Part shown: positions 9,405-26,208 of the stretch, in pieces
How positions within the stretch are numbered: the first letter of the stretch is position 1
Layout of the letters: each line of letters begins with the position of its first letter
Origin: a virus
Direction: 5' to 3' (one strand)
DNA length: 35,095 bases
IMG/VR virus record: IMGVR_UViG_3300046167_000218
Coordinates: 1 to 35,095 of that record
Translations under genes and position numbers: made by a program
Notes under the pieces: model-generated
Told to the model about the DNA's origin: nothing
Database searches by the model: none
The model's input: the letters and a program-made list of their open reading frames with translations, nothing else

Positions 9405-11276
9405 CTAAATCTCGCAGTTATTACCAGTACAGGCTAACGTCTGTGACCCTTCAGTGTTGTCAGAGTTTTCAGAGATGTTCCACTCAATAGTCTCTGGAAA
9501 CTCTTCCTTCAACTTCTCATAAGTCTCTAAGTCAATAGGCTCATAAGGTGCTTGTTGATAGGTATGCTCTGAGTAAGGCAAGAACGACACACCACTGATC
9601 TTATCGAACTTGTTGTACAACCACTGACCTACCTCAAGAAACTCATCGTCCCTGTAGTAACAAGTCATGGACGGTTTGTGTTCACACCAATAGTCTTGGT
9701 AAATCTCCCATAGCTCTAACTGTTCCATAGCACCCATCTCAGAGGCTACTACAGCCCCGTCAGGAGACTTTATAGGGAAGGAGAATACCTTGGTAGTGGG
9801 TGACATTACATCGTCCTCTACGGGGATTCCTGCGGCTTCTAAGACTTGGCAGAGGGGGTCTCTTGCATCCGCTCTAACTCGTCTAATGTATTGATCTGAG
9901 TATCGAGGGTGGATACCACTAGCAGAATCAACCAACTGACTAACAGTACCGGAAGGTTTAACAGCAGTAATGGCAGTGCTAGTATTAATACCAAGCTTAG
10001 TAGCCCATTCCTTATTAGTGTTAATTGCTTCTTCCTTGAGGGTAGTAAGCCACGTCTTAAGTTTCTCACGATCTTTTCTCCCTGATAGCATTGGATGATC
10101 CATAATGCCTGTTAAGCTAACACCCAGTAACGCTTCCTCTTCAGTGTTGTTCTTCCACACCTTACGAAGGTAACGAAAATCTGTCAAGGTAGCCTGTAAA
10201 GTTCCAAGGATAGACGCAACACGTACTTTTCGTTGCAAGTCTGAGAGCGTATCGGTTGCCCTGACAACAACTTCCGATAGATTGCAGAACTGGTAAGGTC
10301 GTAGGATAATCTCGCTACATGGATTAGTTCCAAAATCATAGGTAGCATCTCGTCGCTCGTTCTTTGCAGCTTGCTTTTGACTTGCGACTCTAGAGAACAT
10401 ACCTCGCTCTCCTGATCGGGACTCGTATAAACTTTTCCATTCATTTAAAAATGCCTCAAAGTCTGGCTTCTCTGTATAACACGCACTGTTATTGGCTAGT
10501 CCCCGTTGAGGATTATCTTGCCACCACTGGCCTGACTTGCATCGTCGGAGTCTATCGTCAGTGAGGTTAGACAGACTGATGAGAGCGGACCTGCGCACAC
10601 CCCCGACAACGACGATCTGTGCAATCTTACAGCACAAATCGTGACATTCGATGGAGCTAAGTTTACGTCCAGCAGCCTCCCGAAAGACGCTGACTGTGAA
10701 GTTGAACAGATCGACAAGAGGCTCTGGACCAGATGCTCTACCCCCGAAGGTCTTAAGGGTTGCCCCTGCAGATCGTACTCCAGACACGTCCCATTTTGGA
10801 AGTTGGCCTGAATAGAGCAAGCTAACAAGTTCCCTGTAAGCTTTAGCCCATCCAATTTTGCTGTCGGCGACGTGTATAACTGAATCGGTATCATGAAATT
10901 CCTCCGCTACTTCTGGTAGTTTGGATACGTACTGTCGTTCAACAGAGAAACCTACACCTGTGCCGCACATAAGTACGTACATCATCTCGTCAAACGCTTT
11001 AGGGTGGTCAATAGGTAGGTAGCTACAGTTAAAGCCAGCTACGTTGTCACGGTCAAGTGCCTCTCCAGCAGTCATTAACGCTCTCATGCTAGGCATAACA
11101 TCCATATCGTGAATGTCTGCAAAGATACCGTTAGCCTGTTCTAGTGTTAACTTACCCTTCTCAATCCAGAAGTTTAAGTACCTGTCGATTGTTTCTTCCC
11201 AAGTCTCACGTCGTTGTTCCTCTGGTAGGTAACGAGCGTAGCGGGACTTGTGAATGTACTGTTGATATGCGTCCAA
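9405..11276 (-). CDS. nrdJ: Class II (adenosylcobalamin-dependent) ribonucleotide reductase
   Basis: A 623-residue protein that reduces ribonucleotides to deoxynucleotides for phage DNA synthesis using a B12-derived radical. The visible motifs are N-P-C-S-E (Cys320, Glu322), the second cysteine of 'FCNL' (Cys331), and Cys84 in 'GFNCSYLP', which would pair with Cys331. The 11-residue spacing between Cys320 and Cys331 equals that of C408 and C419 in the Lactobacillus leichmannii enzyme. A C-terminal C-x4-C (616, 621) fits the reductant shuttle. No ATP-cone or NrdB partner is seen. The start is TTG with AAGGAG upstream, inside the DUF1289 gene, with a 71-base overlap. It is the last gene of the leftward unit. 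The shorter monomeric RTPR-like form is likely. Confidence 0.88.
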   Translation of the reverse strand: MDAYQQYIHKSRYARYLPEEQRRETWEETIDRYLNFWIEKGKLTLEQANGIFADIHDMDVMPSMRALMTAGEALDRDNVAGFNCSYLPIDHPKAFDEMMYVLMCGTGVGFSVERQYVSKLPEVAEEFHDTDSVIHVADSKIGWAKAYRELVSLLYSGQLPKWDVSGVRSAGATLKTFGGRASGPEPLVDLFNFTVSVFREAAGRKLSSIECHDLCCKIAQIVVVGGVRRSALISLSNLTDDRLRRCKSGQWWQDNPQRGLANNSACYTEKPDFEAFLNEWKSLYESRSGERGMFSRVASQKQAAKNERRDATYDFGTNPCSEIILRPYQFCNLSEVVVRATDTLSDLQRKVRVASILGTLQATLTDFRYLRKVWKNNTEEEALLGVSLTGIMDHPMLSGRKDREKLKTWLTTLKEEAINTNKEWATKLGINTSTAITAVKPSGTVSQLVDSASGIHPRYSDQYIRRVRADARDPLCQVLEAAGIPVEDDVMSPTTKVFSFPIKSPDGAVVASEMGAMEQLELWEIYQDYWCEHKPSMTCYYRDDEFLEVGQWLYNKFDKISGVSFLPYSEHTYQQAPYEPIDLETYEKLKEEFPETIEWNISENSDNTEGSQTLACTGNNCEI

Positions 11277-11397
11277 TTATCTTACTCCTTTGTTCATCTG
11301 TATATCTAGTCCAGTTAGTTATCTCTTCCTTGGTACGGTTACATCCTGTACAGGTGTCGTTAACTAACTTGCACTGCTTAACGCAGGGACTATCCAT
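11206..11397 (-). CDS. DUF1289-like small cysteine protein
   Basis: A 63-residue protein with 'SPCVKQCKL', 'CTGCNRT', 'EEITNW' and 'DEQRSKIIGRI', the conserved pattern of the DUF1289 family, a bacterial and phage family of unknown function with four cysteines likely to bind a metal. The family core ends at about residue 44. The last 20 residues are translated from DNA that also encodes the start of RNR in another frame, and may be a read-through tail of no function. It overlaps the upstream DUF3310 gene by eight bases. Translational coupling to RNR is likely because the RNR ribosome binding site lies within this gene. Confidence 0.7.
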   Translation of the reverse strand: MDSPCVKQCKLVNDTCTGCNRTKEEITNWTRYTDEQRSKIIGRISTVHSQVPLRSLPTRGTTT

Positions 11398-11680
11398 TTA
11401 CTTCTTTGATTAATCTATCAATGTACCAGCGACACTTGCGTAAGTCTTCAACAGGCTTACCCTTGTAGTCGTAGCGCCAGAGGTACTTCAGTGCGTTACC
11501 CTTCAGATAACCACGAAACTCATGGTCAGGCATGGATGCCTTGATAGCTTCGATAGCCTCAACAGCACCTTTGTTGTAGTGGTCAGGTTGATCTACAGGG
11601 TCTGCTTTCTTTCGTATTGAAAGATTGTTTAGTGCCGTGATTGTATCCCACTCTTCAGGACTTGCGTTGTCTACACTCAT
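11390..11680 (-). CDS. DUF3310 protein, T7 gp1.7-like (nucleotide kinase family)
   Basis: A 96-residue protein whose C-terminal 65 residues carry the family signature: 'DQPDHYNKG', 'VEAIEAI', 'GYLKGNALKYLWRYDYKG' and 'EDLRKCRWYIDRLI'. T7 gp1.7, which has dTMP/dGMP kinase activity, contains this domain. Most phage members are shorter and untested, so kinase activity here is only possible. It overlaps the metallophosphoesterase gene by four bases and sits upstream of RNR, which fits a role in nucleotide supply. Confidence 0.75.
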   Translation of the reverse strand: MSVDNASPEEWDTITALNNLSIRKKADPVDQPDHYNKGAVEAIEAIKASMPDHEFRGYLKGNALKYLWRYDYKGKPVEDLRKCRWYIDRLIKEVNG

Positions 11681-12441
11681 CCGTACTTCCTCCTAAGATA
11701 CTGCATACTAACAGGTAGTTCATCAAAGGAGCCGTCGTCTACTTCATTGAGCATCCAGATTCCAGACCAACTACCGTTCGTTTGTGGGTTTAAGTAGTCT
11801 TCACTATGGTTGTAGTAGATACCAGCAAACAATCCAGTGATGTTACTACCGTCTGCTTTACGTGCGTAGGCTATGTCTCTGTCTTGCACGTGTCCCATGA
11901 TGCACGACATGAACTTCTTTTGCAACATGAGTTTTGCGCAGGTGACTGGTCTGCCCATGACTCCGCTCGTGAAGTAGTGGCAGTACGCGATGCCGTCGAT
12001 GATGATTGGTTGTAGAAAAGGGACAACCTCCCATCCGGCTTCTTCCAATAAGAAATGATCATAACTCATAAGTCCTTCTAGTTTCGGATCAGCTTCAATA
12101 GCACGTTCAATCCGTTGTTCATGGTTACCTAACAAGAATACCATCCGTGGTGTCCATGTCTTCTTCTTGTTACTACGCAAGCGTTCCTTCTCTGCTTCGA
12201 TAGGCGCTAGGAAGTGTTCCATAGCGTTCTGTCCTGCTTGTATGTCTCGTGTGTACCGCCGTCCTTCAAAGGACTTTTTACCTACGTCATAGCTACTGAG
12301 ACTTTCCATGTCCCAGTGATCCCCCAGATGAATGATAACGTCAGGCTTTGTTGCGGCTGCATACTTACCAGCCCAGTACAAATGATCAACACTGTTACCG
12401 GGCTTGACTTGCGTGTCAGGTATTACTAGGTGTCTTGTCAT
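11677..12441 (-). CDS. Calcineurin-like metallophosphoesterase
   Basis: A 254-residue protein with the ordered metal-binding motifs of the metallophosphatase superfamily: D-x-Q at residues 9-11 (usually D-x-H), GDHWD at 40-44, GNHE at 105-108, a histidine at 155 (CHYF) and GH at 183-184. The substrate is unknown; phage members are reported to act on phosphodiesters or nucleotides. Replacement of the first-motif histidine by glutamine (DTQ) is seen in other phage members as I recall them, and could change metal use. It lies between endonuclease I and DUF3310 in the replication operon, with overlaps of four bases on each side. Confidence 0.8.
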   Translation of the reverse strand: MTRHLVIPDTQVKPGNSVDHLYWAGKYAAATKPDVIIHLGDHWDMESLSSYDVGKKSFEGRRYTRDIQAGQNAMEHFLAPIEAEKERLRSNKKKTWTPRMVFLLGNHEQRIERAIEADPKLEGLMSYDHFLLEEAGWEVVPFLQPIIIDGIAYCHYFTSGVMGRPVTCAKLMLQKKFMSCIMGHVQDRDIAYARKADGSNITGLFAGIYYNHSEDYLNPQTNGSWSGIWMLNEVDDGSFDELPVSMQYLRRKYG

Positions 12442-12845
12442 TGCTTTTTACTCCATCCGACAGGACAGGTTTCTGCTGTGTACCAAGCGAAACCTTGTTT
12501 GTCTGCCCATTCTTGCATGGTGTATCTTGTCCCGTCACTTCTACGTCTTGCTCCGGGCATTGCAGTTCGTGGGTTTTGGAAGACAAAGACCAGCTCCTCC
12601 TTCTCCCCAAGGCTGTTGCTAATGTCAACATATTTCCTCGCCTCTGCGCGGTCACGGAACCTCCCTTTAGCTTCAATATATATAGTAGAATGTGTACTGT
12701 AATATACAAAGTCAGGCTCATACGTCTTGACTTGGGTATATGTTAACTTGCCAACATGGTACTCGCATCGTCTGAACTTCTGGTGAAGGTCATACTCGAA
12801 CCAGCTATCGTACCCTTTAGGTATGTTACGCTTCGTTCTCTTCAC
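12438..12845 (-). CDS. Endonuclease I-like Holliday-junction resolvase (T7 gp3-type)
   Basis: About 135 residues from the GTG at 12845. The catalytic set of T7 endonuclease I is present: Glu17 (DSWFE), Asp45 (YEPDF), and Glu58 with Lys60 (IYIEAKG), followed by 'ELVFVFQNPRT' and a C-terminal helix with 'EWADKQGF' and 'CPVGW'. The enzyme resolves branched DNA before packaging and helps degrade host DNA. The frame is open upstream to 12935, but that part overlaps the exonuclease gene. The GTG with GGAAAGG just upstream gives a protein matching the family length, so I chose it. Confidence 0.82.
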   Translation of the reverse strand: MKRTKRNIPKGYDSWFEYDLHQKFRRCEYHVGKLTYTQVKTYEPDFVYYSTHSTIYIEAKGRFRDRAEARKYVDISNSLGEKEELVFVFQNPRTAMPGARRRSDGTRYTMQEWADKQGFAWYTAETCPVGWSKKQ

Positions 12846-13518
12846 TTGGCCTTTCCCATATCTGATTAGGTTCACGACGTAGCCAGAGCAGCCTAGCGTT
12901 CTCGATGACACGCTCTTCTGTCTCCAACAACTCAACGCACTTGTTGAACATCTCTATCTCTGACAAACCTTCAAGGATTTTCTGGGACTTTTTCTCACCG
13001 ATGCCGTGTACACCCATGATGTTATCAGCTCTATCGCCCATGATAATCTGACGATAAAAGAATAACAGCCCTTCCTCTTCAGTAACAGAAGACAGTTCAC
13101 GCTTGTTGAAGTTGTAGTGTCTGCACGGTACTTGTTTAAAGTCCTTGTCAAGACTGACGATGATGCTGTCAGGGATGGTGGTAGCGTCGATAGCAATCAA
13201 GTCATCAGCTTCCTCATCTTCTGATACAACAGCATTCCAATCTTCGATCAGGTACTTACGTATAGCTTCAAGGTGTGCAGGTTTTTCTACGTCCTTACGG
13301 TTACCTTTGTAAGGCGCAGTCACAGCTACGTCGTTACGAAAGTTACCTTTGCCTGTTAGGTAGACACGGTAGTCTGGTTCGCCATCTATCATGGTGTATA
13401 GATCACTTACCAGATCAGACAAGAAACTGCCCGTAGTATAACAGGCAGTCTTGACTGACTCATCGTCGCACTTGAATGCACAACGATAAGCCACAATGTC
13501 ACCGTCGATCAGGATCAC
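12826..13518 (-). CDS. 5'-3' exonuclease, T7 gp6 / FEN-like
   Basis: A 230-residue protein with an N-terminal 'ILIDGDIVAYR' (metal-binding aspartates at 5 and 7), 'YKGNR' in the helical arch region, 'EDEEADDLIA' near residue 100, 'SLDKDF', and the helix-hairpin-helix 'GDRADNIMGVHGIGEKKS'. All are standard in FEN-type exonucleases that remove primers and digest host DNA. The start is GTG, overlapping the SSB stop. The 3' end overlaps the endonuclease I gene by 20 bases. Its place between SSB and endonuclease I follows the usual T7-like replication cluster. Confidence 0.85.
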   Translation of the reverse strand: MILIDGDIVAYRCAFKCDDESVKTACYTTGSFLSDLVSDLYTMIDGEPDYRVYLTGKGNFRNDVAVTAPYKGNRKDVEKPAHLEAIRKYLIEDWNAVVSEDEEADDLIAIDATTIPDSIIVSLDKDFKQVPCRHYNFNKRELSSVTEEEGLLFFYRQIIMGDRADNIMGVHGIGEKKSQKILEGLSEIEMFNKCVELLETEERVIENARLLWLRREPNQIWERPSEENEA

Positions 13519-13922
13519 AACGCTTCCGCTTCAGAGACTGAGTTGTCAGCGTACTCGATCAGGTTAGTAACCTTCATCTTGATCATAGATGGTGAACGTC
13601 CAGTACCAACAGACCAGTCATAGTAACCGACAACAGCGATAGCTTCAGATCCGTTAGCGATAAGAACATCTTCAGGAATCTCAACACCGTCTCGTCAGTC
13701 AGACCGCATAGGGTTGTTAGCTCTTCATCGGTAATAAAGAAGCCACGGTCGTCACCTTTGTTGCTTGGTGCGATGCCCATCTCTTCGATAGGCCTCAACA
13801 GCTTTCTCACTGAGGTTACCAAGCTGTACCTGATACTTGTTACTGTACTTGTTGAGCTTGTTACGCTCACACCAGTAGACGGTTCCGCGTACAGTGATGG
13901 GTGGTAGTTTGTTTGCAGACAT
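13515..13922 (-). CDS. Single-stranded DNA-binding protein, reading frame broken by two compensating indels
   Basis: The ATG at 13922 has AAGGAG upstream. Frame 1 gives 'PPITVRGTVYWCERNKLNK' and 'QVQLGNLSEKAVEA', then hits a stop. The next frame carries 'IEEMGIAPSNKGDDRGFFIT'. After a second shift, frame 1 resumes with 'IPEDVLIANGSEAIAVVGYY' to the stop at 13515. Removing one base from a CC pair near 13791 and adding one near 13692 restores an uninterrupted protein of 135 residues. The beta-rich pattern and position between polymerase and exonuclease fit a gp2.5-like SSB that coats single strands and recruits polymerase. As written, no full-length protein is made, which is unlikely for a working phage. 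Confidence 0.65.
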
Positions 13923-13932
13923 AAGTTTCTCC

Positions 13933-15585
13933 TTAATGTGTCTCTGCCCAATTGTTACCTACTCTATACTCGCCGTCTAAGGGACACCGTAGGCTGAGTG
14001 TCTCACCGGCGATTCTGATTGAACGTACACCGATACGTCCGACTGTGTCAGCGTAGTGGGCAGGTGTTTCTATCTGCCATTCATCGTGTACGTTTGCTAC
14101 AAATCTGTGTGGTATGTTACGTAGTTTATCTGACAAGTGTACCAAAGCTTGCTTCATAACAATAGCCCCAGCACCTTGTAAAAGTGTATTCAATGCTGCG
14201 TGTTCTGATCTGACTCTGAGCTTTCGTCCATCAAGGCCAACAAGGACGCCTGATACAGCCTGTCTGTGTATATCTCCTCTAACTCTTTCAAGAGACGGCG
14301 TGTTAGATAGAAATGTTTCCTTAAGTCTTCTTCCAGTAACGCTATTTCCTCCAACGATAGCTCCGATCTTAGCATCTCCGGCTCCATACAGAAACGCATA
14401 AATGAATGTCTTCGCAAGAGGTCTCGTCTCAAGTCCAGCTGCTCGTTGATTAGCCGTATGAATATCGCCATTGAGGATTTCATTAGTATAGTTCTCGTCG
14501 TCCATGTAGTGCGCCAACATACGTAACTCTAAACCGCTGGCATCTATACCAACCAACTTGTTACCTTCATCCACTGTCCAACATGAGCGGCACTCTGTAC
14601 CAAACGGTGCAGATACTGCTGGTACTTGTGCCATGTTAGGTGAGAGGTGTGTCATACGTCCTGTCACAGCTCCGTTAGTGATGACTCTACCGTGTACTCT
14701 ACCATCGTCCTTCACTGCTTTCAACCATGAATCTATCTGAGCTACTCGCTTTTGCAGCATCATGTAACGTGCAACAGCTTTGGCTTCAGGAAGATCTATA
14801 CTGTCCAGCACCTTCTCATCGACAATGATGTTTCCCTTCTCAGTCTTCTTGTCAAACTTAACACCCAGACCTTGCAGTCGTTCTGCTATCTGCTTACGTG
14901 AACCGGGATTGAAGATTGTTACCTTGTCCTTCAGTCTCTTACCTGTCTTCTCTGACCAGCGTTCTTCAACGATAGGTGGGAAGATAGCTTGTAACTCTGA
15001 CTCGATGTTGTTCATCTCAAACATAAGATCCATCATCAACTTCTCTGCAAAGGGTACGTCAAGCTTAAAGCCGTTGCGTTCCTGCTCAGTCACGATCCAG
15101 CCTACACGATGTTCCAGATCAATAGACTTTTGAGAAAACTTTTCCTTCATCATCTGCAGCGATAACCACTTATGTACCCGCTCAGTCAGTTCAACGTCAG
15201 CGATACAGTACTCGATCATCTCTTCTGTTAATCCACCGTCGTAGTCGGTAAAGTCGAGCTTGCCTGTTCCTCCAAGGATTGCTCCCCAATTACGCAGTGA
15301 ATGTCCTCCTTCTTGGCTGGGGTTGTAGAGTCGGGAGAGGTAGAGAGTATCCACAATAAGATGCCTAGGGATGCGTACGTTCCAAACACGATCAAGCACA
15401 CCAACATCGAAGCCGATGAGATTATGTCCCACAATTTCTTCAGCATTGTTCAACACCTTCTTCAAAGACTCTGGTGTCGTATGTACTTGGGTGTTGTTCT
15501 TCACCTTCGTAACGGCACACCAGATCGTTGAGTGATCCAAAGTAGTTTCTATGTCCAAGTAACAGGTATTCATCGTATCTCTCAT
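13933..15585 (-). CDS. DNA polymerase, family A, T7 gp5-like with 3'-5' exonuclease domain
   Basis: A 550-residue protein. Residues 1-145 are the proofreading domain: DIE (11-13), 'GHNLIGFD' (53-60) and Y126-x3-D130. The polymerase domain has motif A 'GIDASGLELRMLAHY' (Asp348), motif B R388-x3-K392-x3-Y396 in 'AKTFIYAFLYGAG', and motif C H500-D501-E502. The ending GNNWAETH mirrors the GPNWAICH of T7. It is about 150 residues shorter than T7 polymerase and lacks an evident long thioredoxin-binding loop. Tyr396 occupies the E. coli Phe762 position. A second ATG four codons in (15573) has a better-placed GAGAG and may be the true start. The gene replicates the phage genome together with the helicase and SSB beside it. 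Confidence 0.93.
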   Translation of the reverse strand: MRDTMNTCYLDIETTLDHSTIWCAVTKVKNNTQVHTTPESLKKVLNNAEEIVGHNLIGFDVGVLDRVWNVRIPRHLIVDTLYLSRLYNPSQEGGHSLRNWGAILGGTGKLDFTDYDGGLTEEMIEYCIADVELTERVHKWLSLQMMKEKFSQKSIDLEHRVGWIVTEQERNGFKLDVPFAEKLMMDLMFEMNNIESELQAIFPPIVEERWSEKTGKRLKDKVTIFNPGSRKQIAERLQGLGVKFDKKTEKGNIIVDEKVLDSIDLPEAKAVARYMMLQKRVAQIDSWLKAVKDDGRVHGRVITNGAVTGRMTHLSPNMAQVPAVSAPFGTECRSCWTVDEGNKLVGIDASGLELRMLAHYMDDENYTNEILNGDIHTANQRAAGLETRPLAKTFIYAFLYGAGDAKIGAIVGGNSVTGRRLKETFLSNTPSLERVRGDIHRQAVSGVLVGLDGRKLRVRSEHAALNTLLQGAGAIVMKQALVHLSDKLRNIPHRFVANVHDEWQIETPAHYADTVGRIGVRSIRIAGETLSLRCPLDGEYRVGNNWAETH

Positions 15586-15611
15586 TCAGTTCGTTACGTT
15601 CAGTGTCGTGG

Positions 15612-15854
15612 TTAAACTTCTGGTAAGTCTCCGTCAACTGTTCCTGTTCCAATATCCAAGTCCCAATCTTGCTCATGGTGTATCATCTCCTCTATGTCTG
15701 CGAGTGTTCGTAGATCGGCACGGTCAATTACATCACCGTCATCTAGACTAACAGCGAAGCACTTGTTGCACAAATCTACAAACTCTTGGCTAACAGCGAA
15801 TCGTCTTGTTGCTTCGTAGTCTGTTAGCTCTACGTCACACGCTATACATCTCAT
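15612..15854 (-). CDS. Small zinc-ribbon-like protein of unknown function
   Basis: An 80-residue protein starting M-R-C-I-A-C, with a second pair C-N-K-C at residues 29-32. The two C-x2-C pairs probably bind zinc. The C-terminal half is acidic (DDGDVIDRADLRTLADIEEM). It overlaps the PD-(D/E)XK gene upstream by four bases and lies just before the polymerase gene, so it is part of the replication operon. I recognise similar short CxxC proteins next to polymerase genes in T7-like marine phages but know no function. Confidence 0.6.
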   Translation of the reverse strand: MRCIACDVELTDYEATRRFAVSQEFVDLCNKCFAVSLDDGDVIDRADLRTLADIEEMIHHEQDWDLDIGTGTVDGDLPEV

Positions 15855-16369
15855 TCAATAAGTTCCTCTACCGGTGTCAGCTTATACTGATCTAAAAAGT
15901 AGGCTGGTTTACCTCTACCAAAAGGATCGCCCCAGTTTTCCTCTTGTACTATCTCATCATAAGTAGCATAACCTACTACAGTATACTCAGGAAACTCCCC
16001 CACTACTAGTAGGTACAGATCACACTGGTCGTTCTTCTTGTGAGGCATGATGATAAGTCTGCCTGTCCTGTACTTGGTTGTCTTAACATCGACAGTCTTA
16101 CCGTTACATATCAAGTCATGGGTGGGTAGTTCATGAGCTTGAAAGTCTGTCTCAATATCGTAGTACACGTTGAGCATCTTTGCTGCTGCCATCTCAGAGC
16201 CAACACCGTCAACATCAACATCTTTATATGACTTAGTAAATAAAGTGTCAGACAGTTTGTTGTTGAAGCCCTTCTCTCTCGCATTCTCATAACGCATACG
16301 AGCGATAGACTCACAGACCTTCTGTTCATTCTTACCTAGCTTATAAGACAGCACTTTCCTTCTCCTCAC
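15851..16369 (-). CDS. PD-(D/E)XK nuclease-like protein
   Basis: A protein of 172 residues from the GTG at 16369, or 167 from the GTG at 16354, which has the better-spaced GAGGAGAAGG. A probable active site is Glu59 (GVGSEMAAAKML), Asp85 (HDLICNG) and Asp94-Val-Lys96 (VDVKTT), the E-D-(D)xK order of the restriction-endonuclease fold. The C-terminal part (YLLVVGEFPEYTVVGYATYD) is beta-rich. The target is unknown; host-DNA breakdown or branched-DNA processing would fit its place between primase-helicase and polymerase. It overlaps the helicase 3' end. Confidence 0.65.
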   Translation of the reverse strand: MRRRKVLSYKLGKNEQKVCESIARMRYENAREKGFNNKLSDTLFTKSYKDVDVDGVGSEMAAAKMLNVYYDIETDFQAHELPTHDLICNGKTVDVKTTKYRTGRLIIMPHKKNDQCDLYLLVVGEFPEYTVVGYATYDEIVQEENWGDPFGRGKPAYFLDQYKLTPVEELIE

Positions 16370-17969
16370 GTTGTGTCAATCTACCCGTTGCTTCATTGTA
16401 GAACACCTCACACGCCTTGCCTGTCTTACCGGTGTATCGGTTCTTCAACACACGCAGCACGGTCGTGTTTCTAACAACGGGATCATCACTCTGACTGTTA
16501 CGTTCAGCACCGATGACGGCGTCAGAGAGCTGTGCAATCGACGCAGAGCCACGTAACATACCAAGGCTAGTGACAGCACCGTCCTCCAATTGCTTCCCTT
16601 CAGGGCGTCGTAGGTGGCTCACAAGGAACATGCAAATACCCATCTCCTGTACGAACGTGCGTAGCTTAGTCATGATCATGTCCAAGGCACGTCGCTCATC
16701 ACCGTTGCTCTGGTCAGAGACCAAGATCGAGACGTGATCCAGTACGATATAACGTACGCCTAGTACCTTGACGAAGTATCTCATCCTGCCCAGTACGTTT
16801 TCTATCTCGTTACTACCGAAGTGTTCCCATAGATAGACACGATTCTCATAGTCCATCGTATCGTACACAAGGTCAATGTCTTGATCGTCGTACTCACAAT
16901 CAGGTAAGTGAATAGGTTTGTTCAGTTCAAGACCTACAAGACCACGCATGGTACGCTCAGGTGTCTCCTCAAGAAACATCAGACCAAGGTTATCCTCAGA
17001 CTGTGCCATGATGGAGCTGACTATCTCACGGAGGAGAGTAGACTTACCTAGTCCAGAGCCTGCACAAATAGTAACCAGCTCTGCTGTGCGTATACCGTAC
17101 AGGTGTTTGTTCAGTCCCTCGAATGGATACTGTACCTTGGCCTTGGTCAGTGGCTTCTTGATCAAGTCACGTAGCTCACCAGCACCAACGATACCTTCAG
17201 GTGTGTATGGTTGTGCAGACCAGAATACTTTGGTGTACATCTCCGACTGATTGTTAACAAGATAATCACACGCATCTTTGTAGCCGTTAACGTGCTTAAC
17301 AATCCTTGCTTTGTTACCGAACAGATCAGCACATTCCTTCGCTGCCTTCTGTCCCGGCTCGTCAGCATCGAAACAAATAACAATGTTCTCGAAGCTGTTC
17401 AGCCAATCATAAAAGAGGCGACAGTCCTTTGCCGCCGACGTTGCACCGTTACGGACACTGACAACGGGAAACTTACTACCTGTCATTTGGTGAGCCGCTA
17501 ACGCATCATACTCACCTTCAACGATAGTCACATACTTACCACCTTCAGAGAACAAGTGCTGTCCATACAAGCCTGCTTGCTTCCAATCTCCAATGATGCT
17601 GAACCGCTTGTCAGGGTTACGAACCTTGGCAGCTATCGGCTTTGTTGGATCGTCAGGGTTATAGTAACCGAATGTTGTAACGTCACCCTGCTTGAGTGCT
17701 GCGTACTTCTTCGCCGTCGTTCCTGTAATGAGACGGTCAGTAATCGTACGATACTCCGCTGTGATTAACCGATGTTCTGTCTGAGTGAATGACGGCTTAG
17801 GCTTATCGCTGATAGATCCTAGCTCTCGTACGTTTTCCCGTACGTTACCCTTGTCGGCTTTCGTGTACTTGCTACAGTTAAAACAATAACTAGAGCCGTC
17901 GTCATTGTACGATAACGCATCACTGCTACCGCAATCAGAACACGGTTGGTGTGTCTCAGTGAATGCCAT
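16341..17969 (-). CDS. DNA primase-helicase, T7 gp4-like
   Basis: A 542-residue protein from the ATG at 17969 (MAFTETHQPC); an in-frame ATG at 18014 adds 15 residues but overlaps the preceding gene. A zinc-binding module (Cys10, Cys13, Cys29, Cys32) leads into a TOPRIM primase domain with Glu151 in 'VEGEYDAL' and Asp201/Asp203 in 'CFDADEPG'. The helicase part has Walker A 'AGSGLGKST' (303-311) and Walker B 'YIVLDHVS' (Asp411), then a DnaB-like 'RGSASIAQLSDAV'. It makes primers and unwinds the fork for the family A polymerase nearby. Length and order match T7 gp4 (566 residues). Confidence 0.93.
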   Translation of the reverse strand: MAFTETHQPCSDCGSSDALSYNDDGSSYCFNCSKYTKADKGNVRENVRELGSISDKPKPSFTQTEHRLITAEYRTITDRLITGTTAKKYAALKQGDVTTFGYYNPDDPTKPIAAKVRNPDKRFSIIGDWKQAGLYGQHLFSEGGKYVTIVEGEYDALAAHQMTGSKFPVVSVRNGATSAAKDCRLFYDWLNSFENIVICFDADEPGQKAAKECADLFGNKARIVKHVNGYKDACDYLVNNQSEMYTKVFWSAQPYTPEGIVGAGELRDLIKKPLTKAKVQYPFEGLNKHLYGIRTAELVTICAGSGLGKSTLLREIVSSIMAQSEDNLGLMFLEETPERTMRGLVGLELNKPIHLPDCEYDDQDIDLVYDTMDYENRVYLWEHFGSNEIENVLGRMRYFVKVLGVRYIVLDHVSILVSDQSNGDERRALDMIMTKLRTFVQEMGICMFLVSHLRRPEGKQLEDGAVTSLGMLRGSASIAQLSDAVIGAERNSQSDDPVVRNTTVLRVLKNRYTGKTGKACEVFYNEATGRLTQREEKESAVL

Positions 17970-18138
17970 AACGGCCTGCCCCCATGTCAGTGTAAAGCTC
18001 GTCAACTTCTTCATCGTCCATTGATTCTAACAAGTCAGAGAAGAAGTTACCTGCAATGTTCATAGCCTCAATGAGCGTTAACGTCTCAAGCTGTCGCTCA
18101 ACAAGCTCACTTACTTTCTGTTCTTTAGAGATACTCAT
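17956..18138 (-). CDS. Small acidic protein of unknown function
   Basis: A 60-residue protein, mainly helix (VSELVERQLETLTLIEAMNI), with an acidic stretch (ESMDDEEVDELYTDMG) and a Tyr-Gly-Ile-His ending. It overlaps the primase-helicase start by 14 bases. AAGG lies upstream of the ATG at a loose spacing, and a candidate promoter is about 60 bases upstream. I do not recognise the family. Its place directly before primase suggests co-expression with replication genes. Confidence 0.6.
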   Translation of the reverse strand: MSISKEQKVSELVERQLETLTLIEAMNIAGNFFSDLLESMDDEEVDELYTDMGAGRYGIH

Positions 18139-18195
18139 AGGTTAAATACCTTATAAGATAATATTTTTAAATTAAACTTTTCTGCTTCTGTATAG

Positions 18196-18226
18196 ATTAT
18201 AAACACAGCTCACAGTTCTTCGTCAA
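18196..18226 (-). promoter_or_regulatory. Candidate sigma-70 promoter before the replication genes
   Basis: Leftward, TTGACG (18226-18221) and a perfect TATAAT (18201-18196) are separated by 19 bases, two more than ideal. The -35 box lies in the last codons of the upstream gene. It sits in the only notable gap (71 bases) among the early genes and could give replication genes their own start site. Confidence 0.4.
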
Positions 18227-18392
18227 CAATATGTTCAACGATTTTATCGTAAACGTGTTGACCAATCATCTCGACCAGCTCAACACCGTACCACTTAACA
18301 GAGTCTAAAATGATCAGACCGTCCTCGTTGGTGAACTGAACTGTAATGTCAACCAGCATCTCTACGTCAAACAGATTACATTCACCCTTCAT
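18210..18392 (-). CDS. Small acidic protein of unknown function
   Basis: A 60-residue acidic protein with two hydrophobic beta-like stretches (MLVDITVQF, GLIILDSVKWYGVEL) and a helical end (VYDKIVEHIVDEEL). GGAGG lies six bases before the ATG, and the start overlaps the preceding stop (ATGA), so translation is coupled. There is no recognisable family. It belongs to the run of small early genes that often encode host-takeover factors in phages; that role is inference only. Confidence 0.65.
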   Translation of the reverse strand: MKGECNLFDVEMLVDITVQFTNEDGLIILDSVKWYGVELVEMIGQHVYDKIVEHIVDEEL

Positions 18393-18550
18393 AAAACCTC
18401 CGTTGTGTGCTTGACAATTCGATAACGTCTACCATTGTCCCGCTTTGTTTGCACGTAATACTTCGCCTCGTCTACGTCGTCCGTTGTAAACACCTGCGAC
18501 CAAACATCGTCGTATAACTCAACTACATATGTTGTATTAATACCTATCAT
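18389..18550 (-). CDS. Very small early protein of unknown function
   Basis: 53 codons from the ATG at 18550 (MIGINTTYVVELYDDVWSQ), with a C-terminal basic part (QTKRDNGRRYRIVKHTTEVL). AAGGAGTGAGAC precedes the ATG and the stop overlaps the next start (ATGA). The alternating pattern suggests a small beta sheet. The gene is too short for most automatic calls but has a strong ribosome site and tight coupling on both sides. Family unknown. Confidence 0.65.
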   Translation of the reverse strand: MIGINTTYVVELYDDVWSQVFTTDDVDEAKYYVQTKRDNGRRYRIVKHTTEVL

Positions 18551-18553
18551 GTC

Positions 18554-18727
18554 TCACTCCTTAGCATCAACGAATCGCTGAAGCTTTCCCATTGCTTTAA
18601 GTTTCTTCAATGCGTCCCGTTCAATCTTCTGCACGGTTATGCGGTGCAAGCCAAGCGCCTTTGCTACTTCCTCTTGCGTCATGTGATACTCCGCAGCATT
18701 GCCGTGGTACTTCCGTTTGTCTTTCAT
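18554..18727 (-). CDS. 57-residue helix-turn-helix protein resembling sigma-70 region 4
   Basis: 57 residues from the ATG at 18727. Residues 17-44 read 'TQEEVAKALGLHRITVQKIE' then RDALKKLK, which follows sigma-70 region 4.2 position by position (T-x-E-E-V, R-x-x-x-x-x-I-E, A-L-x-K-L). The rest is basic. It could bind DNA at -35 elements or the RNA polymerase beta flap. There are no other sigma regions, so it cannot act as a full sigma factor. GAGG lies five bases before the ATG; the stop is three bases before the next gene. In a phage with no RNA polymerase, a role in steering host polymerase is plausible but untested. Confidence 0.75.
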   Translation of the reverse strand: MKDKRKYHGNAAEYHMTQEEVAKALGLHRITVQKIERDALKKLKAMGKLQRFVDAKE

Positions 18728-18952
18728 CTATGCCTCAAGTGTTGCCTGTCCTGTCACTTCAATGTGTAACCATCCTATCCATGCAATGTATGAATACCCG
18801 CTGTACTCGTCCGCTGGTACGTATGCCGTGGATAACCTAAAGGTACCAGTGAAGTACAGGTCGATCAAGTGGTTCCGCGTCTCGATAACAAGCCCGTTGT
18901 TGCCAAAGTCTGTCACGTATTTGTAGTACCGTTTAGCCGTTGTGATCTTCAT
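18728..18952 (-). CDS. Small early protein of unknown function
   Basis: A 74-residue, beta-rich protein with many aromatic residues (KRYYKYVTDFG, SGYSYIAWIGWLHIEV). GGGGAGG lies eight bases upstream of the ATG, and the start overlaps the preceding stop (ATGA). It abuts the sigma-region-4-like gene. I recognise no family. There is no signal peptide or clear membrane segment, although the C-terminal third is hydrophobic. Confidence 0.65.
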   Translation of the reverse strand: MKITTAKRYYKYVTDFGNNGLVIETRNHLIDLYFTGTFRLSTAYVPADEYSGYSYIAWIGWLHIEVTGQATLEA

Positions 18953-19125
18953 CGCATCAACCTCCCCTGCCTGTTTAGTTCTTTCATGCGTTTTTTATAA
19001 CGTGCCTTGCGCTTGCGTCGTCGTCTGTTTCGTGGGTCTGTCCAGCTCTCATAAGCCCAGCAAAGGCCAGCCCATACCGGCACGAAGCTAAACAGAATTG
19101 CAATGTCAAGTAATGTTGGGTTCAT
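18949..19125 (-). CDS. Small membrane protein with a strongly basic cytoplasmic tail
   Basis: 58 residues from the ATG at 19125, with GAGGTGACAAC upstream. One hydrophobic helix spans about residues 4-25 (LLDIAILFSFVPVWAGLCWA). The rest is very basic (NRRRRKRKARYKKRMKELNR). By the positive-inside rule the tail would lie in the cytoplasm, where it could bind nucleic acid or lipid head groups. Both ends overlap neighbours by four bases. No family is known to me. An inner-membrane early protein could alter host membrane functions or anchor DNA, which is inference. Confidence 0.7.
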   Translation of the reverse strand: MNPTLLDIAILFSFVPVWAGLCWAYESWTDPRNRRRRKRKARYKKRMKELNRQGRLMR

Positions 19126-19301
19126 GTTGTCACCTCGTTGTTTTGTATGTCGTAACCCATTGGACCAGCACTTTGATAAACTAGGTCCGCCAAATCTGGG
19201 TATTGCTCCTCAAGTTTCTCAATTTGTTGGTATGCGAAAATATCATTGGTCCGTAATGTACGCTCTACCAGTGCTATATATTCCTGTATTACGTCTTTCA
19301 T
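19122..19301 (-). CDS. Small early protein of unknown function
   Basis: 59 residues from the ATG at 19301, with a strong GAGGAGG upstream. It is mostly acidic helix (KDVIQEYIALVERTLRTNDI, then QQIEKLEEQYPDLADLVYQ). It overlaps both neighbours by four bases (ATGA). No family is recognised. The coupled layout says it is made in equal amounts with the other early small proteins. Confidence 0.65.
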   Translation of the reverse strand: MKDVIQEYIALVERTLRTNDIFAYQQIEKLEEQYPDLADLVYQSAGPMGYDIQNNEVTT

Positions 19302-19708
19302 GCTGCCTCCTCTGTTTCTCGCTGGATAATTTCTCCGCAGGTGTAGTCAAGCACTGACAAGTCAATGTATCGGCACATCTGTTTAACCTTCGCTGTCACG
19401 CTTTCAGGGTATGCGTCAACCAATGCGTGAGCTAACAGGTAAGACTTTTTGCAGTGTAGTATGTCACGCGGTCGGAAGTGCTGCGGATTCTCCACCGCAT
19501 CTATTAAATGTTTGACAACAAAATACTTTGCAACCATCGCGACAGGATCAGGCTTGATTCCGTAAGGTGCGGCGTTGTTCATGATGCGTTGTTGTTGCTT
19601 CTCATATTCAAACATCTCTTCAAGTACGTCATAGTTGCCAAGTTGACGCAGTGGATACATTTCGCTCATTGCGCCGTTGATAATGCTTTTGATTTGGTTC
19701 TTGGTCAT
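19298..19708 (-). CDS. Early protein of unknown function
   Basis: A 136-residue, largely helical protein with a cluster near the centre (PYGIKPDPVAMVAKYFVVKH, then PRDILHCKKSYLLAHALVDA) and cysteines at about 85, 111 and 124. GGAGAAACACCAC precedes the ATG. No signal peptide or membrane segment is seen. It is the second gene of the leftward unit and follows a GUAA-loop hairpin. I do not recognise it. Confidence 0.65.
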   Translation of the reverse strand: MTKNQIKSIINGAMSEMYPLRQLGNYDVLEEMFEYEKQQQRIMNNAAPYGIKPDPVAMVAKYFVVKHLIDAVENPQHFRPRDILHCKKSYLLAHALVDAYPESVTAKVKQMCRYIDLSVLDYTCGEIIQRETEEAA

Positions 19709-19732
19709 GTGGTGTTTCTCCGTTGTGTTTGT

Positions 19733-19752
19733 GGAGCCGCTTACGCGGCCCC
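19733..19752 (-). promoter_or_regulatory. GUAA-tetraloop hairpin between the first two early genes
   Basis: Leftward RNA can fold as GGGGCCGC-GUAA-GCGGCUCC, eight pairs with one G-U. No U tract follows, so it is not a standard terminator. It lies after one early gene and 25 bases before the next start. It could be an RNA-processing site, a stabiliser or an attenuator. Confidence 0.5.
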
Positions 19753-19762
19753 GTTTGCAAAT

Positions 19763-20005
19763 TTAGAATATTTCACGCTTGTTAATCTTTATAGTCTGGT
19801 GTTGCTCCATTGCCGCGTCGGTCATGGGAAAACCAGACATAGCCGCTGAGAACTTGTCGCTGTAGCTGCCCTCTTTCATGATCACGCAATCAAAGAAGGG
19901 ATACGTTGCAACATCGTCAACGTCCAACGCGATGACAAATTCAATATCCCAACCACGCTCGCCAGTCTCAGGGTGAACAGTGTAAATCTCATATAAGTTA
20001 TACAT
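19763..20005 (-). CDS. First leftward early protein, unknown function
   Basis: An 80-residue protein with an acidic, aromatic N-terminus (MYNLYEIYTVHPETGERGW) and beta-like pattern (EFVIALDVDDVATYPFFDCV). AAGG lies nine bases before the ATG. It is the first gene of the leftward unit and has a roughly 135-base leader from the candidate promoter at 20142-20170. I recognise no family. First genes in phage early units commonly target host functions, but nothing in the sequence shows it. Confidence 0.6.
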   Translation of the reverse strand: MYNLYEIYTVHPETGERGWDIEFVIALDVDDVATYPFFDCVIMKEGSYSDKFSAAMSGFPMTDAAMEQHQTIKINKREIF

Positions 20006-20192: not shown

Positions 20193-20222
20193 TAGGGTGT
20201 GGCTATGGGGTCCTACCTAGAC
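20190..20222. repeat. 7-base inverted repeat GTCTAGG / CCTAGAC
   Basis: The arms are at 20190-20196 and 20216-20222 and are perfectly complementary, with a 19-base loop. It could be an operator or a small cruciform near a putative origin. Confidence 0.4.
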
Positions 20223-20305
20223 TCTCACACCTCACCTCTGCAGACCTATCTAGGCATCTGCATATGCATATATAAAGATACCTTTATGTTTGTCTGCAAA
20301 GATCT

Positions 20306-20320
20306 GGGGCGGGGGAGGGG
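20306..20320 (+). other. G-rich tract
   Basis: GGGGCGGGGGAGGGG stands out in AT-rich non-coding DNA. Three G runs of four or five could form a two-layer quadruplex or a protein site; no fourth run follows closely. Confidence 0.6.
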
Positions 20321-20500
20321 CTGTGACTGCGGCGACTACGGTATGTACTACCTAGATACAAAAAAGAGCAAAATTGAACCTTAAAATAACCCCTAGTTAT
20401 CTAACAAGAAACAATATATAAATCAATAACATAAGCAGTTCAGAATCTGGACCGTGCTGGTACAGTTTAAAGGACAATGTAGTCTTGTTAAAAATAATGC

Positions 20501-20529
20501 TTGACAAATCCCTAAAAGTATGGTACAAT
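20501..20529 (+). promoter_or_regulatory. Rightward sigma-70 promoter for the late genes
   Basis: TTGACA (20501-20506), a 17-base spacer ending GTATGG, and TACAAT (20524-20529): eleven of twelve consensus bases. Transcription should start near 20536, just before the structured leader and about 120 bases upstream of the first late gene. Confidence 0.85.
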
Positions 20530-20544
20530 AAATAGTATATTATG

Positions 20545-20638
20545 TCTTTAAAGATTCTTTACCGCGCTGTGTAAGATAAATTTTATATGATAATTATTAA
20601 ATGTATGTCATATAAGCACGGTAACGAGACTTTAAAGA
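20545..20638 (+). promoter_or_regulatory. Structured 5' leader: 24-position imperfect stem with nested hairpin
   Basis: The arms 20545-20568 and 20615-20638 pair at 20 of 24 positions plus one G-U, with mismatches at three places and no gaps. Inside, TATATGA (20584-20590) pairs with TCATATA (20608-20614), stacked directly on the 3' arm. Each outer arm carries CTTTAAAG. It lies between the late promoter and the first late gene. It could be a mRNA stabiliser, an RNase III-type site, an attenuator or, as DNA, an operator or cruciform. Confidence 0.7.
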
Positions 20639-20649
20639 GTCTTTAAAGA
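20629..20649 (+). repeat. Tandem 11-base repeat with CTTTAAAGA boxes overlapping a ribosome site
   Basis: CTTTAAAGA occurs at 20630-20638 and 20641-20649, exactly 11 bases apart, and a third copy is at 20546-20554. The flanked form TCTTTAAAGA is a perfect palindrome (20545-20554 and 20640-20649). The last copy overlaps AAAGAGG, the ribosome binding site for the gene at 20657. Confidence 0.75.
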
Positions 20650-20656
20650 GGTATGT

Positions 20657-21067
20657 ATGTCAGATGTTGATAATCCTCCTCGCCGAAAGCGTGGAAGACC
20701 GCGTAAAAGTGACGTTACAACAGTAAAAAAAGGTAATCGCAACGCTGTTGGTCGCCCGAAGGGTGACGCTGCCGTCATTAACGAATACAAAGCAAGGATG
20801 TTAGCGTCTCCAAAGTCAAGAAAAGTACTTGATACTATCTTTGACGCAGCTCTTGACCATGATCATAAGAATCAAGCAGCAGCATGGAAGCTTGTTATGG
20901 ACAGAATCCTTCCTGTTGCAGCATTTGAGAAGGATATTGTTAAAGATGGTGGTCGTAACGCCATTCAGATTAACATTAGTGGTGTAGGAGCTGTTGCCAC
21001 GTCTGGCGACATTGTTGATATTCCTGAGCCTACAGTAATCGAAGGAGAAGTAGTCGATGAATCTTAA
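20657..21067 (+). CDS. Putative small terminase subunit with AT-hook
   Basis: A 136-residue protein with a basic N-terminus containing a canonical AT-hook core (RRKRGRPRKS) and a second GRPKG, a central helical part (NEYKARMLASPKSRKVLDTI and 'AAWKLVMDRILPV') and a beta-like acidic tail. The position before the large terminase suits a small terminase, which recognises genome DNA for packaging, and AT-hooks would aid DNA binding. I see no firm family signature, so a general DNA-binding protein remains possible. GAGG is five bases upstream, inside the CTTTAAAGA repeat. It overlaps the endolysin start by 11 bases. Confidence 0.55.
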   Translation: MSDVDNPPRRKRGRPRKSDVTTVKKGNRNAVGRPKGDAAVINEYKARMLASPKSRKVLDTIFDAALDHDHKNQAAAWKLVMDRILPVAAFEKDIVKDGGRNAIQINISGVGAVATSGDIVDIPEPTVIEGEVVDES

Positions 21068-21407
21068 GCATTTTGATCCTTCAGAGTTTAACTGTCAAGT
21101 CACTGGCACCAATAACATGGAGCGAGACTTTTTAGAGAAGATGGACGAGTTACGTGAGGCGTGTGGTTTTCCTTTCCAGATCACCAGCGGGTATCGACAC
21201 CCGACTGAGCATCCAATAGAGGCTAAGAAAGACGTACCCGGCACTCACGCTCAGGGCATCGCGGCGGATATAAAAATAACAAACGCCGTGTTTCGCCTTA
21301 AGATTGTAACTGAGGCTATTCGTCTAGGATTTACAGGCATAGGTATTGCTTCTGACTTTGTACACGTTGATACGCGTGGCACAACACCAGCAATGTGGAC
21401 GTACTAA
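21057..21407 (+). CDS. Endolysin, M15-family peptidase
   Basis: A 116-residue protein with 'SGYRHP' (44-49), His64 and Asp71 in 'THAQGIAADI', and His103 with Asp105 in 'FVHVDTRG', the zinc ligands and active-site pattern of the peptidase M15 (D-Ala-D-Ala carboxypeptidase / L-Ala-D-Glu endopeptidase) group. It cuts peptidoglycan cross-links at the end of infection. There is no signal peptide, so it needs the holin encoded far downstream (33326-33670). It starts inside the preceding gene with AAGGAG upstream. The length matches compact phage M15_3 enzymes. Confidence 0.85.
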   Translation: MNLKHFDPSEFNCQVTGTNNMERDFLEKMDELREACGFPFQITSGYRHPTEHPIEAKKDVPGTHAQGIAADIKITNAVFRLKIVTEAIRLGFTGIGIASDFVHVDTRGTTPAMWTY

Positions 21408-21408
21408 T

Positions 21409-21717
21409 ATGAAGTTTTCTCACGGCGATGCACTAACAGCAGGATCTGCTAACACAATACTAGATGTACCTGCTGGCTACGATGCTATTGTTACCTACTT
21501 GTTTATTTCTAATACGACAGGTAGCAGTAAAAGCCTCAGTGCTAAGTGGGTACACAGCGGTGTAGACATTGATTTTTTGTCAGGTAAAAACGTAGGTGCT
21601 GGTGACTTTCTAGAGTTTGGTGGACAGTTCGGTGAGTTTCTTGTTGCAAAAGAAGGAGACACCTTAATACTAACACCAGAAGCTACTTCTACGTTTGTCA
21701 GTATTGTTTCCTTTTGA
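21409..21717 (+). CDS. Small beta-rich protein of unknown function
   Basis: 102 residues from the ATG at 21409, right after the endolysin stop, so translation is probably coupled (no clear ribosome site). The pattern is beta strands with small loops (NTILDVPAGYDAIVTYLFIS, 'EFLVAKEGDTLILTPEA'), as in small virion decoration or head-associated proteins. It lies between endolysin and large terminase. I recognise no family. Confidence 0.6.
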   Translation: MKFSHGDALTAGSANTILDVPAGYDAIVTYLFISNTTGSSKSLSAKWVHSGVDIDFLSGKNVGAGDFLEFGGQFGEFLVAKEGDTLILTPEATSTFVSIVSF

Positions 21718-21747
21718 ACTAATACCAGCAACACCAAGGTTGAACTT

Positions 21748-25906: not shown

Positions 25907-26153
25907 AACCAAAGGTGGTCTTACTAAATGGTTTAAAGAAGATTGGGTGGACGTTAAAACGGGTAAGTCTTGCGGTCGTAAGTCAGCTACCAAGAGTAAA
26001 CGTCCTTACCCTTCTTGTAGACCTAAAGCCGTTGCAGCTAAGATGACCGCAGCAGAAAAAAAGTCATCAGCAAAACGTAAGACAGGACCCGCTAAAATTA
26101 AACATGCAGTAACAGCGTCAGGACGTAGACGAAAGACTACAAAAAAAGCTTGA
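25899..26153 (+). CDS. Small basic phage protein (conserved GGLTKWFKEDWVD type)
   Basis: 84 residues from the ATG at 25899; a GTG 12 bases earlier is less likely. The conserved opening 'KGGLTKWFKEDWVDVKTGKS' with 'CGRKSATKSKRPYPSCRPKA' and 'AAKMTAAEKKSSAKRK' matches a family of unknown function that I recall from phages and giant viruses (possibly DUF5872; not checked). The two cysteines could bind metal. The tail is basic. The stop codon is part of the -35 box of the next promoter. Confidence 0.7.
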   Translation: MSKTKGGLTKWFKEDWVDVKTGKSCGRKSATKSKRPYPSCRPKAVAAKMTAAEKKSSAKRKTGPAKIKHAVTASGRRRKTTKKA

Positions 26154-26178
26154 CATATAACAAAATGTATGGTATAAT
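26150..26178 (+). promoter_or_regulatory. Consensus sigma-70 promoter before the capsid genes
   Basis: A perfect TTGACA (26150-26155), a 17-base spacer ending GTATGG, and a perfect TATAAT (26173-26178). The TGA stop of the preceding gene lies inside the -35 box. It should drive scaffold and major capsid expression. Confidence 0.9.
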
Positions 26179-26208
26179 ATAACTATACAGTAAACTTTAG
26201 AGGAAACT

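Follow-up and report, generated by a model that had tools for sequence, protein, structure and literature searches.

Short palindromic boxes repeated about once per helical turn, in variable copy number, are characteristic of MetJ- and TrpR-type operators, and the lambda N leader with its RNase III stem is a case of a phage leader stem that lies near a ribosome site and could be opened by RNase III. The late-gene leader described here resembles the former in its boxes A and B and the latter in its stem, but its boxes lie 90-115 bp inside the transcript and on the ribosome site, a third box is out of phase, and no matching repressor was found in the phage; lambda N is an early gene, whereas this leader precedes a late one, and the likeness is that of a predicted stem, not a sequence relation. 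In AapA3-type mRNA, ordered folding hides the ribosome site (PMC6733600). As in the MS2 maturation-gene leader and in hok/AapA3-type mRNAs, our leader is predicted to pass through successive exclusive pairings during transcription that finally hide the ribosome site. Unlike in those systems, the pairing sites repeat one palindromic box within the late leader of a DNA phage, and the final register is not conserved among relatives; the likeness rests on predicted folds. Literature searches returned general parallels only. Should the RNA model prove right, the known phage leaders would gain a self-closing ribosome site built on a palindrome. Proposed control elements are scarce for late leaders of uncultured marine phages, and the clear anatomy, many natural variants and discrete types in near-identical backgrounds make RNA and DNA models of this one separable.

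Anatomy of the late-operon leader

The window (the whole stretch of DNA analyzed) is the 35,095-base IMG/VR record IMGVR_UViG_3300046167_000218, from an uncultured marine phage family. Its minus-strand genes at 9405-20005 encode a helicase-primase, DNA polymerase A, an exonuclease and a ribonucleotide reductase, and its plus-strand late genes, from 20657, encode a TerS-like protein, a peptidase/endolysin, the terminase large subunit, portal and capsid; the promoter and a leader of about 121 nt sit between these two arms. The window's DNA polymerase shares 51.6% identity with the enzyme of Pelagibacter phages HTVC103P/104P, and no cultured phage relative matched at the DNA level or by TerS. The first late protein is probably TerS, judging from gene position; its AT_hook match (E 0.008) is under the gathering score, and its structure model was of low confidence, too low for use. 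The promoter, leader and first late gene comprise the following features:

20501-20529, plus strand: sigma-70-type promoter TTGACA-17-TACAAT with an extended -10, 11 of 12 consensus positions
20545-20554, plus strand: box1, the 5' arm TCTTTAAAGA, invariant across all leaders of the family
20555-20568, plus strand: conserved continuation TTCTTTACCGCGCT, which brings the box1:B helix to a length of 17 bp or, alternatively, pairs in the box1:A register
20583-20590, plus strand: left arm of a nested hairpin, TTATATGA, with one both-sided pair change among relatives
20608-20615, plus strand: right arm of the nested hairpin, TCATATAA, partner of TTATATGA
20629-20638, plus strand: box A, ACTTTAAAGA, a box1 partner with one A-A mismatch; its pairing leaves the ribosome site free
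20640-20649, plus strand: box B, TCTTTAAAGA, a box1 partner that overlaps the ribosome site
20648-20652, plus strand: ribosome-binding site GAGGU, a few bases 5' of the ATG at 20657
20657-21067, plus strand: first late gene, TerS-like, 136 aa from ATG 20657, with an AT-hook motif (RKRGRPRKSD)

An earlier note on this DNA had described a late-gene leader whose 5' arm has two mutually exclusive partners, one of them over the ribosome site. This description stands, as do the box coordinates and pairings (9/10 for box1:A, 10/10 for box1:B, with A and B exactly 11 bases apart), and the arms of the nested hairpin are present as well. In the window, box1 and box A are separated by 84 bases. The 17-bp box1:B helix includes one G-U pair (20555 with 20639), and in the box1:A register the TTACCG of the continuation pairs with CGGTAA at 20619-20624. 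Judging from the promoter, transcription probably starts near 20536, upstream of box1, and the same promoter precedes the leader in most leader-bearing relatives. GAGG is retained in nearly all family leaders (exceptions: GAGA in L027/L031 and GAAGG in L073), and CTTTAAAG boxes are unique to the leader within the whole window.

Some simpler roles for the leader were rejected. No intrinsic terminator-like site was found in it and no U run follows the stem, which rules out an intrinsic terminator or attenuator. Short open reading frames occur (one from ATG 20542, MSLKILYRAV, and another in mid-leader), but their start codons are missing in other leader types and, in our reading of the leader comparisons, length differences between leaders are not multiples of three, which argues against a leader peptide. 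Farther into the late arm, a second strong sigma-70-type promoter (TTGACA ... TATAAT) lies at 26150-26208, ahead of gene 26209, where the boxes are absent; at 21400-21730, after the peptidase gene and ahead of that for the terminase large subunit, identity among relatives falls to about 50%, with flanks at about 90%.

Predicted folding and ribosome-site closure

The RNA fold of the leader had a z-score of -5.1, equaled by none of 200 shuffles. A 17-bp helix was reached in 1 of 2000 dinucleotide shuffles and is the longest among 121-nt stretches sampled across the window; three copies of one 8-mer appeared in 4 of 2000 such shuffles. The window's leader folds to -41.0 kcal/mol in the box1:B register and to -33.1 kcal/mol in box1:A, with box1:B making up about 99% of the ensemble, and in the full-length fold the ribosome site and start codon are mostly paired. 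When prefixes of the leader were folded, box1 was paired with A up to 20647 and with B once 20649 had been made.

We compared registers across 45 distinct box1 leaders, collected from viral contigs by searching for TerS and scanning for the pattern. The preferred register was B in 34, A in six and an A:B hairpin in one, with none clear in the other four; the ribosome site was mostly closed where box1:B was preferred. Nearly identical leaders could differ in register (L150 vs L040), and the ribosome site was largely open in the outgroup leaders L073 and L224. Compared with shuffles, L076 was far more structured and L073 no more so. The earlier note had also offered a two-state RNA switch as one reading of the leader; a balanced switch is not supported by the free-energy comparison. 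A true switch, with near-balanced registers chosen by a ligand or protein, seems very improbable: both registers are possible in most leaders and are nearly equal (within about 1.3 kcal/mol) in L003, L051 and L092-like leaders, but the window favors box1:B, by about 8 kcal/mol (37 C) or 9 kcal/mol (20 C), and Rfam 15 gave no match at the gathering score anywhere in the window. Because the preferred register drifts among relatives, a finely balanced switch is not a conserved property.

Our preferred reading, a tentative one, is that the leader acts in cis as RNA: by folding in order, it would shut the TerS ribosome site on the late-operon mRNA. With polymerase moving away from the strong promoter, the 5' arm would pair first with box A, at a time when the ribosome site has not yet been made. 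Once box B emerges, the 5' arm would branch-migrate to this perfect partner, so that the start codon and some of the ribosome site become sequestered. Translation of TerS from the mature mRNA would then be poor, with most initiation on transcripts whose stem has been cleaved or melted, perhaps by RNase III or by some factor from the host or the phage. The folds, their order, the chance test and the restriction to TerS leaders are computed, and around them we infer the start site, the effect on translation and the opening factor. A more specific version, in which the three palindrome copies act as a kinetic timer, seems rather improbable: a brief site-free register followed by self-closure would give the packaging gene a short translation window, with alleles swapped as a cassette of roughly 300 bp.

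Distribution, exchange and covariation among relatives

The leader is a genuine, structured feature of one lineage. Each of the 148 A/B tandems in the collected loci lay directly 5' of a TerS start, and the element is single-copy in each genome, always ahead of TerS. Distant TerS genes (about 70-80% identical) have short or unrelated leaders with weak folds. A covariance model found no match in the leaderless loci searched, and scanning again with the conserved 5' segment brought up no new distant leader. Since the leader is absent or unrelated in distant TerS loci and the covariance model had no match there, it is confined to one subclade. Seven pattern matches in bacterial genomes fell in unrelated taxa and contexts, as expected by chance, and were set aside. 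In another subclade (L201, L204, L205, L221), unrelated leaders carry the short repeat units TAGGACTTAGT and ATGCAT in varying copy number.

Four leader types were distinguished, namely a (the window's), b (ACGGTAA), c (ACTTATAAGG) and d (L073/L224), and they are swapped between backgrounds. L014 and L028, for example, show 99.7% identity over 1487 downstream nt and no difference in the aligned part upstream, but just 76% identity in the leader, while L109 and L157 have leaders that are 99.4% identical and downstream DNA that is 86% identical. Single contigs could still be chimeric assemblies (L014 starts 325 nt before TerS); several pairs agree. The stretch from promoter through leader to the TerS N-terminus (20400-20750; L014, L028, L051, L151, L109, L157) behaves as a cassette of roughly 300 bp exchanged among near-identical phages.

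Covariation was counted on 31 distinct rows. In the box1:A helix, two pairs located in the flank were changed on both sides (U-A/A-U and U-A/C-G), giving 10 cells, a count found in 0 of 500 shuffles and above every slid version. The box1:B helix had no both-sided change in these rows. The earlier note had held that relatives lacking compensatory changes would speak against its proposal; such changes were found in the site-free register, as the two pairs above, and none in the occluding one. The nested hairpin showed one pair changed on both sides and, in some leaders, a U-U mismatch. For an A:B hairpin the covariation count is confounded, as both boxes are the same palindrome, and G-U pairs are frequent in both long-range registers. 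The covarying pairs appear to reflect few independent events among recombining leader types, and lend support to pairing, not proof.

The boxes themselves changed in another way. Box1 stayed unchanged (TTTAAA) throughout while the centers of A and B varied: each of these is CTTTAAAG or CTTATAAG in nearly all leaders, all four combinations are present, and their central bases switch jointly from TA to AT with box1 unaltered. The palindrome is kept in 98.5% (A) and 99.3% (B) of cells, more than either long-range register. Box A and box B are spaced by 11 bases, or by 12 in two outgroup leaders; L049 carries an additional 11-bp unit and L076 an array; the distance from box1 to A ranges from 62 to 93. 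In one leader type, TTTACCG of the 5' arm is retained and its partner CGGTAA is lost.

Weighing RNA, DNA and other readings

Arguing for RNA are the fold, the variable spacing, the use of G-U pairs and the two covarying pairs; arguing for DNA are the palindrome-preserving changes and the 11-bp period. Two early-region features bear on the latter:

18150-18157, minus strand: lone CTTATAAG box that overlaps the ribosome site of early gene 17956-18138 and is conserved in relatives
18554-18727, minus strand: free-standing sigma-70 region 4/HTH-like protein of 57 aa, patchy in relatives

The self-closing RNA leader is compatible with the range of box1-A distances, which fits the tolerance of an RNA loop. 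Counting against it are the occluding register without both-sided change, the drift in preferred register, the retention of TTTACCG without its partner, the symmetric center changes opposite a constant box1, the largely open site in L073/L224, the shuffle-level fold of L073 and the many leaderless relatives. The palindrome-keeping changes favor a DNA-binding factor that reads palindromes, or else the copying of one box onto another. In the main rival to the RNA reading, a phage or host protein bound at A and B as tandem palindromic sites, in the manner of MetJ-like or other dimeric repressors, might roadblock or tune the late promoter, with box1 as a third site near the start and the RNA fold as a by-product of the repeats; we regard this as somewhat unlikely. 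It would account for palindromes better kept than the registers, for the paired center changes in four combinations and for the near-constant 11-bp unit, and the conserved box ahead of the early gene is possibly a second site of the same factor. But a fitting regulator did not emerge from the phage: the HTH gene does not track the leader, being missing from a leader-bearing 37.7-kb record and present in leaderless ones, and was rejected as the repressor on that ground. Leader type is unlinked to the neighboring early genes (12 changes, against 13.2 in shuffles), which speaks against a type-specific repressor encoded by the phage. Box B, moreover, always lies on the ribosome site, which an operator would not need, and the paired changes might also have arisen by copying from box to box. 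The earlier suggestion of three operator palindromes one turn apart fails for box1, which is out of phase with A and B; these two are palindromic and 11 bp apart and may form a two-site operator. DNA looping between box1 and A/B was rejected on the same unphased spacing.

That the leader has no dedicated function is unlikely. On this account an AT-rich box providing the ribosome site was tandemly duplicated and spread by frequent phage recombination, and the folds follow from the repeats, as the drifting register, the differing number of 11-nt units and the missing or unrelated leaders of relatives with 70-80% identical TerS would suggest; it sits poorly with a near-invariant box1 and flank beside leader parts that differ, with folds far beyond shuffles in the window and L076, and with the two covarying pairs. 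We consider it quite improbable that the phased AT-rich boxes form a packaging or replication site, pac/cos- or origin-like, read by an AT-hook TerS beside its own gene or by the replisome. The AT-hook motif of the TerS-like protein is equally conserved in relatives without boxes. Record 3300025828_000003 has an exact terminal repeat of 2141 bp whose end falls about 448 nt 5' of TerS, and matching sequence stands at the start of other contigs, but such ends could stem from assembly; near 20 kb the GC skew turns, but so does the coding strand.

Several observations concern the surroundings of the leader. The end of the 2141-bp repeat is possibly a genome end (a direct terminal repeat) or possibly an assembly break. 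Record 3300025828_000003, which carries this repeat, is 37,662 nt long, and the contigs L001, L012, L013 and L032 begin at or near the same CCTAGACTCTCACACC sequence (window 20207-20240). The ribosome site of gene 17956-18138 (minus strand) is overlapped at 18150-18157 by a conserved CTTATAAGG box, a situation like that of box B in the late leader. A G-rich tract, GGGGCGGGGGAGGGG, lies at 20307-20325, ahead of the late promoter; several contigs start near it, and a G-rich run is found at a similar place in several relatives, both with and without the leader.
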